Shown here: piece by piece, positions 23,682-27,695 of the stretch
Layout of the letters: each line of letters begins with the position of its first letter
Numbering within the stretch: the first letter of the stretch is position 1
Origin: Stigmatella aurantiaca DW4/3-1
GTDB taxonomy: Bacteria; Myxococcota; Myxococcia; Myxococcales; Myxococcaceae
DNA length: 64,000 bases
Reading direction: 5' to 3'
NCBI RefSeq assembly: GCF_000165485.1
Contig: NC_014623.1
Location: 3,305,501-3,369,500 of the forward strand
The notes under the pieces: generated by a model
Told to the model about the DNA's origin: nothing
Database searches by the model: none
Seen by the model: the letters and a program-made list of their open reading frames with translations, nothing else
Translations under genes and position numbers: made by a program

Positions 23682-23841
23682 CGCAGGAGGTTGTCGTCGC
23701 CCCGTTGCTCGCGGCTCATGGGTCCAAGCGTTTCAGGCGCATGCAGTACGGATGCGGTGATGAGGTTCATCGCTGGGGGGGGCGGTTTTTCACGGCTCCC
23801 CTGGGTGGACCGTTCTACGCACTGCACCCTTCGGGCTTCTG

Positions 23842-24042
23842 ATGCAGGGTACCCCACCACCGCTCGCGCGCCTTTCCTCTCGCCTGGGCGTGCCCGCCTT
23901 TCAGTACAACATCTACGGCACTACCTCAGAGTTCTTGATGGAGGTGGATGCCGGCGGCCGCGTCGAACTCTCAGGGTGCGTCGGTCACGATGTCACGCTC
24001 CTTGAGTCAGAGCGGGAGGATCTCGTGCGGTGGCTCGGTTAG
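23842..24042 (+). CDS. Hypothetical 66-residue protein
   Basis: ATG 23842 overlaps the stop of a short upstream frame (TGATG). The product reads MQGTPPPLARLSSRLGVPAF, QYNIYGTTSEFLMEVDAGGR and ends EREDLVRWLG. It could be a small intact protein or the C-terminus of a larger one. It belongs to no family I know and sits among gene fragments, so it may be non-functional. Confidence 0.3.
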   Translation: MQGTPPPLARLSSRLGVPAFQYNIYGTTSEFLMEVDAGGRVELSGCVGHDVTLLESEREDLVRWLG

Positions 24043-24267
24043 CTTGTCGCTCGAATTGATCCCGGGAGCCGTGAGTGGAGGGGTCATCCTGCGCACATCG
24101 TTCGCAGGCTCGCCGCTGAAGAGTGCGTGGAGCCGGCCATCAAGACTGTTTTTGGCGGGTCGAACGCCAAGCACTGCGACAACCTCTTTCTCGTGGAGAC
24201 GCTCGTCCCCCATGCACCTTTGCCCGTCGATGGGTTTGTGCTGTACGCGGAGGCGAGCAATCGCTAG
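24043..24267 (+). pseudogene. C-terminal gene fragment
   Basis: In the same frame as the 66-codon ORF but after its stop, about 70 codons look coding (HIVRRLAAEECVEPAIKTVF, GGSNAKHCDNLFLVETLVPH, LPVDGFVLYAEASNR) and end at TAG 24265-24267. No start codon with an RBS is visible. It is probably the 3' end of a decayed gene. Between 24268 and 24564 I see only the IS-like end at 24408 and an AT-rich patch. Confidence 0.3.
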
Positions 24268-24407
24268 ACAGCTCCCCGCATACCAAGCGTCAGGAGAACA
24301 CCCCGGCGTGGCCGCGGACCGCCCCTGCTGGCCCCCGAAGCTTCAAGGGGGCTCAGCAGCCCGAAGGAAGCCCCGCCACAGATCGGAACTGAGCATCAGC
24401 ATGATGA

Positions 24408-24421
24408 ACTCCTAACAAAAA
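24408..24421 (+). repeat. IS-like end, third copy
   Basis: ACTCCTAACAAAAA matches the complement of 20779-20790 over 13 bases (CTCCTAACAAAAA). It may mark the left boundary of the segment that brought in the mlaC-like gene. Confidence 0.35.
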
Positions 24422-24564
24422 ATTGCCCCAGGGGGATCTTCCGCTCGAGGTGGTGGCTCCAGTATTTATTTTTTGTCAAGAAGTCTTGATGCGTTGTCGC
24501 TGCTGCATGAGCCGGGCCGGCAGTGACGACATACCGGACGAATCAATCAAGGAAGAGGATGACC

Positions 24565-25197
24565 ATGTTCAAGCGCATCATGATGCTCACCATGATGGTA
24601 ATCGCGCCGCTGGCTACTGCTGCGGATCAGACAAACCCATACAAACTCACGAACGAAGTGGCACAGAAAACCTTTGACCGCCTGAAACGCGAACAGCCCC
24701 AGATCCGTCAGCATCCTGACCACCTGCGGACCATTGCCCATCAAGAACTGCTCCCTTATACACAGTTGAAGTACGCGGGTGCACTGGTGTTAGGGGCCTA
24801 CTACAAGTCGGCGACGCCGACGCAGCGTGACGCTTACTTCAAGGCGTTTGAAGAATATGTGGCACAGGCCTTCGGCCAAGCGCTGGGGTATACGCATAGC
24901 GACCAGACCTACCAGATTGCTCCAGAGCAACCGCTGGGCGACAATAACAAGGCGGCGATCCGTGTCACCATCATCAAGTCGAACGACCGTCCGCCGCTTC
25001 ACCTGGACTTCCAGTGGCGCAATTACAGCAAGAAGGGTTATTGGCAGGCTTATGACGTAATTATCGAAGGTGTCAGCATGGTCACCACGAAGCAAAACGA
25101 GTGGGCTGATATCCTGCGCACCAAAGGTATCGATGGTCTGACCGCGCATCTGCAGGACAGTGCCAAGCAGCCGATCACCCTGGACAATAATAAATAG
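24565..25197 (+). CDS. mlaC: MlaC-like phospholipid-binding protein of enterobacterial type
   Basis: A 210-residue protein beginning [19 protein letters not shown], a signal peptide cleaved before ADQTNPYKL, with GGAAGAGG upstream. The mature protein follows E. coli MlaC as I remember it almost throughout: [61 protein letters not shown] and [19 protein letters not shown]. MlaC ferries phospholipids between the outer-membrane MlaA complex and the MlaFEDB transporter. No other mla gene is nearby, base composition is clearly lower in GC than the neighbours, and flanks are gene debris. Recent transfer from a gammaproteobacterium or an assembly chimera are both possible. Confidence 0.85.
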
Positions 25198-25299
25198 TAA
25201 GGCCTCGTGAGATTTGTCTGAAGCGGCAGGTGCGTCGTGCCGTCCGGCAGCGGACGCTTCATGCGTCGGGCGTGACGGCCACTCTCCCAGTGCGTGGAG

Positions 25300-25732
25300 C
25301 TAATGGCGAGTGCGGAATGGGCTGGACAGGGCTGAAACGGAGTATCGCGTGGCTCGATCCACCTGCAAGCGCACGAAATCCGCGCCGTCTTCGCGCCGCA
25401 GGTTGGCGTAGAACACCAGTCCGTGCTGATCCCGTCGCGGCGCCTCCCAGCGCGCCCCGACGGTGCCGCTGAGGTAGCCCAAGTCCTCCTTCGTGCGAAT
25501 CCCCTCCGCCCTGGTTGCCAGCGCCACCAGCTCCATCACCTCCTCGAGGTTTGCCTCCGAATCCAGCTCCGCCTGCGATCCTCGCAGCGCTTCGTTCAGC
25601 TCTTCGACGGAGCGCTGCGCTGGCACGAACCTCTCTCCGAACTCCGGCCAGTTCGGTCCAATGCTTCGCCCCGAGTTCCTCGAGCTTCGCGCGCAGCGCT
25701 GGCTCAGCCTCGTTGATGTCGTGTTTTTTCAT
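25300..25732 (-). pseudogene. Unknown gene with an apparent frameshift
   Basis: ATG 25732 opens MKKHDINEAEPALRAKLEEL GAKHW, after which coding character passes to another frame, WPEFGERFVPAQRSVEELNE through DRATRYSVSALSSPF to a stop at 25300. Together about 140 residues, helical and acidic. A one-base shift near 25655 would join them; alternatively the GTG at 25626 starts an intact 108-residue protein. Family not recognised. It is divergent from the KAS III fusion gene. Confidence 0.35.
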
Positions 25733-25820
25733 CGCAGTGCCTCTGACAGGGTGGGGCTTCTCGCCCCCCGCGCTCCCAGGGTCGCACGAAGACAGCAGAA
25801 GACGTATCGTGCTCCCTTCC

Positions 25821-27695
25821 ATGCCCCAAGACGTATTCATCACGGCCCTGGGCAAGTTTCTCCCGGGCGACCCCATTCCCAATGAGCAGATCGAGGACTA
25901 CCTCGGCAAGGTCCGGGGCAAGCCCTCGCGCGCACGCAGCCGGGTCCTCGCACAGAACGGCATCACCCAGCGACACTATGCCCTCGATCGGGAGCAGCGC
26001 ACGCGCTTCCGCAACTGGGAGTTGGCCGTCCATGCCATCCAGGATGCGCTGGGGCGCTCGCCCATCACCCTGGGGGAGATGGACCTGCTCGTCACCGCGA
26101 CCACTCAGGCGGATCTCGTCCTTCCCGGCTTCGCCAGTCAGGTCCACCGGGCCCTGGGCGGACCCGCCTGTGAGGTCTCCTCTATCCAGGGCATCTGCTC
26201 CAGCGGCATGCAGGCGCTGCGCGCCGCCTCGTTGCAGGTGGCCAGCGGCGAGGCATCGCGCGCCATTGTCTGCGCCAGCGAACTGGTGAGCCGGCTGCTC
26301 AAGGCCGCCCACTATGAGGAGGTGTCCGACGGTTCGAACTCGGTGCCCTTCGAGGCCGAGTTCCTGCGCTGGATGCTCTCCGATGGCGCGGGGGCCGCGG
26401 TGCTTCAGGACCGGCCCCACCCCTCGCGGCCGAGCCTCAAGGTGGACTGGATCGACATCCGCTCTCACGCCAACAAGTACGAGCTGGGCATGTACGTGGG
26501 GGCCCACCGCGGCCCGGACGGAGGCTTCGGCACGGGGTGGATTGACTATCCCTCCTTTACCGAGGCCGCCGCGGCGGGGGTCTTCACCATCAAGCAGGAC
26601 ATCCGGCGGCTGGACTCCCTGGTGGCGCTGGGCGTGGACGGATTCTTCGCGCTCATGGACCAGGGCCTCCTCCAGCCCGCCGAGATCGACTGGTGCCTCA
26701 TCCACTACTCATCCCTCCACTTCAAGCAGCCCATCATCGATCTGCTGGAGAAGGGTGGCGTGCGCATTCCCCAGGAGCGCTGGTTCAGCAACCTGTCCAC
26801 GCGTGGAAACACCGGGTGCGCTTCCATCTTCCTCATGCTCGAGGAACTGGTGAACGAGGGCCGCGTCCGGCCAGGCGAGCGCATCTTCTGCATGGTCCCG
26901 GAGAGCGGCGGCTTCATCACCTGCTACGCCATGCTCACCGTGGTTTCTCCTACTGCCCCCCAGCGCTCGGCCCTCTCCCTGACCACCTTGCCGGCCTCCG
27001 AGACGGCCCTCCTGGCCCCCTCCCCGGGAGATCCTCTTCGCGAGAAGCTGGTGCGGGAGCTGACGCACGTCTGGGTGGACTTCGAGGGGAAGCTCCAGCG
27101 TGTGCCCATCCTCGAGAAGCTCTCGCGCGGCGTGTTCTCCGTGGAAGACTACCAAGCGCTGCTCATCAACCTCCGCCAACAAGTGGTGGAAGGTTCACGG
27201 TGGATTGCCCGCGCCGCCTCCCACATCACCGAGGAGCACCTGGCGCTGCGCTCGTCCTTCATCCGCCACGCCCGGGACGAGCACCGCGACTACGAGATGC
27301 TGGAGCGCCACTACGTCTCCCTGGGCGGCAGGCAGGAGGACATTGCCCACGCACCGAAGAACATCGGCAGCGAGGCCCTCTCCGCGTGGATGTTCCACCG
27401 CGCCGGCCAGGACAATCCGTTTGATCTGCTGGGCGCCATGTTCATCATCGAGGGCCTGGGCAGTCGCGTGGCGCGGCGCTGGGGTCTGGCCATCCGCGAG
27501 CAGCTCGGGCTCACGGAGGATCAGGTGCGCTTCTTCCTCTACCATGGCGAGAACGACGGCTCGCACATGGAGCGGCTGGAGGCGGCGCTGGGCTCCGGCA
27601 TCCTCACGCCCGAGCTGGCCGCTCGCATCGTCAAGACGGCGAAGGTGACGGCACGGCTCTACCTGCTGCAACTCGAGGAGCTGGGAAATGTCTGA
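25821..27695 (+). CDS. Fusion: KAS III-like ketosynthase + heme-oxygenase-like diiron/redox domain
   Basis: A 624-residue two-domain protein (ATG 25821; the upstream open frame is a shadow of the preceding region). Residues 1-375 are a FabH-type thiolase fold with the complete triad: Cys126 in GICSSGMQ, His295 in LIHYSS and Asn330 in RGNTGCAS. Residues 395-624 match the TENA/PqqC-like iron-containing redox fold, with likely ligands in EEHLALRSSFIRHARDEHRD, MLERHY and later Glu/His helices. Such oxidases cleave or desaturate acyl or amino-acid substrates. The fusion suggests that a condensed acyl product is handed to an oxidative step. It overlaps the desaturase gene by 8 bases. Confidence 0.8.
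   Translation: MPQDVFITALGKFLPGDPIPNEQIEDYLGKVRGKPSRARSRVLAQNGITQRHYALDREQRTRFRNWELAVHAIQDALGRSPITLGEMDLLVTATTQADLVLPGFASQVHRALGGPACEVSSIQGICSSGMQALRAASLQVASGEASRAIVCASELVSRLLKAAHYEEVSDGSNSVPFEAEFLRWMLSDGAGAAVLQDRPHPSRPSLKVDWIDIRSHANKYELGMYVGAHRGPDGGFGTGWIDYPSFTEAAAAGVFTIKQDIRRLDSLVALGVDGFFALMDQGLLQPAEIDWCLIHYSSLHFKQPIIDLLEKGGVRIPQERWFSNLSTRGNTGCASIFLMLEELVNEGRVRPGERIFCMVPESGGFITCYAMLTVVSPTAPQRSALSLTTLPASETALLAPSPGDPLREKLVRELTHVWVDFEGKLQRVPILEKLSRGVFSVEDYQALLINLRQQVVEGSRWIARAASHITEEHLALRSSFIRHARDEHRDYEMLERHYVSLGGRQEDIAHAPKNIGSEALSAWMFHRAGQDNPFDLLGAMFIIEGLGSRVARRWGLAIREQLGLTEDQVRFFLYHGENDGSHMERLEAALGSGILTPELAARIVKTAKVTARLYLLQLEELGNV

Follow-up and report, generated by a model that had tools for sequence, protein, structure and literature searches.

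Results

The window analysed here is a stretch of 64,000 nucleotides from Stigmatella aurantiaca DW4/3-1, taken from positions 3305501 to 3369500 of a genome that consists of one contig of 10,260,756 bases. On its plus strand, at window positions 24565 to 25197, lies an intact mlaC open reading frame of enterobacterial type, with 210 codons, an ATG at 24565, a stop codon at 25195–25197, and a signal peptide in its product; its identity rests on the reading frame, profile matches, phylogeny, and predicted structure. The protein scores 348 bits over its full length (residues 1–210) against the NCBIfam MlaC equivalog NF011697, which has a curated cut-off of 195 bits, and PF05494 (MlaC) was the sole family found in a Pfam search (149 bits vs 26). 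The related HpnM family (TIGR03481), which belongs to the same MlaC superfamily, gave 64 bits, short of its cut-off of 160. Among solved structures, E. coli MlaC was the top match, and an AlphaFold2 model (pLDDT 81) superimposes on it (6gki_A) with a TM score of 0.97 (by target length) and an rmsd of 1.1 Å; the product is thus predicted to adopt the MlaC fold. Its N-terminus, as read from sequence, aligns with the E. coli MlaC signal peptide. A ribosome-binding site is kept upstream of the gene, and a scan limited to sigma-70-type promoters returned none on the plus strand. There was no Rfam match to a structured RNA nearby, and predicted RNA folding downstream was not unusual.

The closest relatives of the window MlaC are from Cedecea and near Enterobacteriaceae, with at most 74% protein identity, followed at about 70% by Buttiauxella, Dryocola, and others; all of its close relatives are Enterobacterales, and none of 392 further genomes of the donor family held a closer sequence than 74%. 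Homology to the MlaC proteins of Enterobacteriaceae MlaFEDCB systems is full-length (74% for Cedecea neteri, L034; 72% for E. coli, 5uwa/6gki). In a maximum-likelihood tree, the window sequence was placed beside the Enterobacteriaceae clade, with moderate support at the enclosing nodes (85 and 77), and its branch, at 0.40 substitutions per site, is the second longest in the tree, after that of L072 (0.55), every other sequence having a branch of at most 0.18. The GC content of the gene is 54.4% (GC3 0.69), as compared with about 64–67% (GC3 0.85–0.91) in neighbouring host genes and a GC3 of 0.56–0.71 in Cedecea-type genes. Its codon choice likewise resembles that of the donors more than that of the host, whereas a control host gene shows the opposite. 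We considered amelioration towards host-like GC, but did not see it: substitutions at unanimous sites lean from G to A. The original prediction had read the product as gammaproteobacterial MlaC along its length, encoded in lower-GC sequence, and both points are borne out, with nearest relatives that are clearly enterobacterial and not myxobacterial.

Remnants of the donor operon lie directly upstream. A piece of mlaE occupies positions 24491 to 24528 (plus strand) and codes, with one base deleted, for the ALSLLRELGPVV core of donor MlaE, encoded in donors at this site as Leu-Ser-Leu-Leu-Arg-Glu-Leu-Gly-Pro. It matches the mlaE of L048 at 89% over 38 bp, and the mlaE genes of L080, L063, and L046 align with it at that position too. 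When the 64-kb window, with mlaC masked, was compared with donor mlaF–mlaD DNA, this remnant was the top match at 48.2 bits, the best match elsewhere reaching 34.6; the supporting matches from other species, at 36.5 bits, are little above that chance level. An operon profile scored the remnant at just 1.0 bit, the best of 300 dinucleotide shuffles scoring −7.9. Derivation from the host's own mlaE was ruled out, as the host mlaE genes give no match. At positions 24537 to 24564 (plus strand) follow the 3′ edge of mlaD, its stop codon lost, and the mlaD–mlaC gap with the ribosome-binding site (AGGAAGAGGA); blastn alignments to L074, L045, L079, and L041 run from mlaC back to 24537. The order and strand of the three, mlaE-mlaD-mlaC, are those of the donor operon. 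Because the mlaE and mlaD-end match points, which are about 1,020 bp apart in donors, now stand 9–17 bp apart, and because a base has been lost from mlaE and the stop codon from mlaD, the captured segment probably began as part of an mla operon and was shortened afterwards.

Beyond mlaC, donor alignments stop at 25200, and the 3′ limit of the enterobacterial DNA falls within positions 25198 to 25226 (plus strand). The ends of the captured segment can thus be placed between 24381 and 24491 on the left and between 25200 and 25226 on the right. No match to mlaB was found downstream of mlaC. A second scrap of mlaC at positions 24395–24420 (85% over 26 bp to a stretch inside donor mlaC, E 0.13) was weak and was set aside as a chance match. 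The original prediction described a gene with no mlaA, mlaB, mlaD, mlaE, or mlaF around it. This is right insofar as no intact mlaF, mlaE, mlaD, or mlaB adjoins it, but the mlaE and mlaD remnants, which are the strongest evidence of where the DNA came from, had been overlooked.

The captured DNA sits among decayed sequence. A remnant of an IS91-type Y2 transposase, 20 amino acids long, abuts it at positions 25227 to 25286 (minus strand; tblastn, 85% to the transposase L089, a PF04986 Y2_Tnp protein), and many related copies of this IS91-type transposase, often degraded, were present across the congeners, with some in all six that were searched. On the left, the captured DNA has as its neighbour a repeat containing a G+C-rich hairpin (GCTGGCCCCCGAAGCTTC...GGGGGCTCAGCAG) at positions 24294 to 24381 (plus strand), of which five further full or partial copies occur in the host genome and many in congeners. 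That the repeat and the IS91 scrap are the two ends of one element is unsupported, their copies lying at different places in the congeners. Further left, positions 23737 to 24267 (plus strand) hold a decayed host gene with 91% identity to L125 and 72–83% to L128 and L135 in congeners; like it, positions 25344–25738 resemble better-preserved stretches of congener genomes. The gene debris and IS-like end that the original prediction had placed beside mlaC are thus both there. Synteny on the right resumes at about 25803–25819, in G005 and G003 only; the left flank showed no synteny with the congeners, and no clean empty site was found in the sister genomes. Past the point where synteny resumes, a reading frame at 25821–27695 combines a ketoacyl-ACP synthase III-like domain with an iron-containing redox domain (PF14518) at the C-terminus, and desaturase-like reading frames follow it.

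A search of 195 Myxococcota genomes at E≤1e-20 returned a match in this genome only. All six of the six congeneric species lack a mlaC of the window type, their best matches being MlaC-family proteins with 23–30% identity. The nearest relatives of the gene therefore lie outside the host phylum while close relatives of the host are without it, as is expected of a recent transfer. The host genome holds two other MlaC-family genes (L002 at 5176348 and L003 at 8957599) whose products share PF05494 with the window protein, the closer being 28% identical; unlike the window gene, these have related copies spread across the genus and family.

Constraint was measured by pairwise dN/dS values and by invariant alignment columns. 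Among 95 positions invariant in the other aligned Enterobacterales sequences, 17 (18%) are changed in the window MlaC; in leave-one-out controls, there were 0–2 such changes in seven other Enterobacterales and 8 in the very long-branched L072. Residues that bind MlaD or MlaA or that line the pocket are kept at 9 of 12 positions (Y72, L76, Y82, R134, R153, D165, N179, R186, and E63), and E. coli I130, R147, and A168 are replaced by K, H, and I. In E. coli MlaC, the I130D variant neither binds MlaD nor complements, R147D reduces binding, and A168R does not complement (PMC10245069); the substitutions in the window protein (I130K, R147H, and A168I) differ from those assayed. The overall dN/dS estimate is low with dS saturated, and pairwise dN to donors exceeds dN between donors. 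When drift to an equal number of changes was simulated, about 9–14% of genes stayed free of stop codons, so an open frame alone is no proof of selection. Taken together with the low overall dN/dS, however, the intact frame makes some selection on mlaC after its transfer possible.

Discussion

We found that the window carries a scrap of an mla operon whose nearest relatives are enterobacterial, and the capture itself is very likely to be real whichever of the readings below is preferred. Its fate is less certain, but we consider it probable that this horizontally acquired enterobacterial fragment now holds an orphan carrier on which constraint has relaxed and which is heading for loss, rather than part of a working Mla pathway. 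The gene resembles Enterobacteriaceae mlaC in its signal peptide, predicted fold, most partner-binding residues, and upstream ribosome-binding region; it departs from it in lacking intact mlaFEDB neighbours, in residing in a genome without MlaA, and in the changes at partner-binding and invariant sites. We propose that a fragment comprising at least mlaE-mlaD-mlaC entered the myxobacterial lineage from an Enterobacteriaceae-like donor after the split from the sister species and settled in a decaying stretch rich in mobile elements; the DNA may have come from lysed prey, been taken up, and then been inserted either illegitimately or in connection with IS91. IS91-type elements are able to move neighbouring DNA, and a role for the adjoining one in the insertion is therefore possible. 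A deletion of ~1 kb, presumably later, would then have fused mlaE with the mlaD end while sparing mlaC. We expect the product still to fold and to reach the periplasm as a predicted lipid-binding protein. Because its cognate partners were lost, the host has no MlaA, and partner-binding residues have changed, the carrier is most likely under relaxed constraint, and at present it is most likely non-functional or weakly functional. The original prediction also raised capture of a prey gene as a real possibility. Capture from an enterobacterium is strongly supported; a prey-type enterobacterium as its source is plausible.

The main rival to the relic reading accepts the same capture and holds that MlaC was kept in use as an auxiliary periplasmic lipid shuttle, alone or with a host MCE/MlaE system, its surface adapted to new partners. 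The intact reading frame, signal peptide, ribosome-binding site, and predicted fold would all be expected of such a protein, as would the retention of Y72, L76, Y82, R134, R153, N179, and R186; the substitutions at invariant sites are a little less drastic than random ones would be (P about 0.05), and two loci of MlaE type and two of MlaD type could offer a carrier partners in the host. However, the host MlaE proteins are just 35–37% identical to donor MlaE, the host is without MlaA, I130K falls at the MlaD-binding cleft, close to a fifth of the invariant sites are changed, and the sigma-70-type scan, confined as it was to promoters of that type, offers the gene none. We thus regard continued use as doubtful, and the suggestion in the original prediction that the lone carrier may work with host Mce/Mla parts is unsupported in a genome without MlaA, where MlaD-binding and lipid-pocket residues have been replaced. 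A bolder version, in which a prey lipid carrier was domesticated without its operon as a stand-alone shuttle for prey or self phospholipids, needing neither MlaA nor MlaFEDB, is improbable.

Two further alternatives concern how the DNA came to be here. The long branch and deep position beside the Enterobacteriaceae, along with the IS91-type scrap at the edge, could be accounted for by indirect capture from a plasmid, a phage, or another bacterium that already carried the fragment, the immediate donor then not being a prey enterobacterium. Plasmids, phage records, and viral contigs contained no closer copy, however, and their best matches were ordinary enterobacterial mlaC at 73% or less; a phage, plasmid, or viral vehicle was rejected accordingly, and we consider the indirect route highly improbable. 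Alternatively, a stray enterobacterial read or clone could have been joined into the assembly, as the original prediction cautioned, and a sequence that is clearly enterobacterial and absent from all relatives is what such a chimera would yield. E. coli, the usual contaminant, is nevertheless only about 70% identical in DNA across 5375 E. coli genomes, which rules it out, and no genome searched exceeded 74%. With its internal deletion, its frameshift, and its missing conserved residues, the fragment is also unlike the mla operon of a living enterobacterium, and it sits between decayed elements. Because an internally deleted mla fragment that differs from all known donors by 26% lies within a genome of one contig, a chimera is disfavoured and appears most improbable.

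Predatory myxobacteria are thought to acquire genes from their prey, although a review of myxobacterial genomes describes signatures of such gain as missing or elusive (PMC8538405). In Bdellovibrio, prey-derived gene transfer has been reported (PMC3539863; mentioned in PMC8538405), and the two cases are alike in that a predator gene has its nearest relatives in distant prey-type bacteria and differ in that the structure of the donor operon is still readable at the Stigmatella locus. Here the transfer is legible from its foreign composition, a donor-close protein, operon scraps in order, a deletion scar, a mobile-element scrap at the edge, and its confinement to one lineage. The case is a rare one in which a gene transfer can be clearly traced. 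What survives is probably a relic that is fading, not a transport system still at work, and it provides a concrete locus for studying how prey DNA is taken up, inserted, ameliorated, and lost.

The host's own machinery may be of a different kind. PF04333, the profile for MlaA, gave no match in the host genome, whereas the E. coli control was positive; with mlaF, mlaE, mlaD, and mlaB not adjacent to the captured gene, the components of a working enterobacterial pathway are not in place. The layout of MlaE-, MlaD-, and MlaC-family genes without MlaA suggests that the host has a lipid-transport route of another design. On the host contig, MlaE/MlaD-type genes (5147169 and 5148921) lie about 30 kb from the MlaC-family gene at 5176348, which by eye adjoins a TolC-like reading frame (28–1368 of L002).
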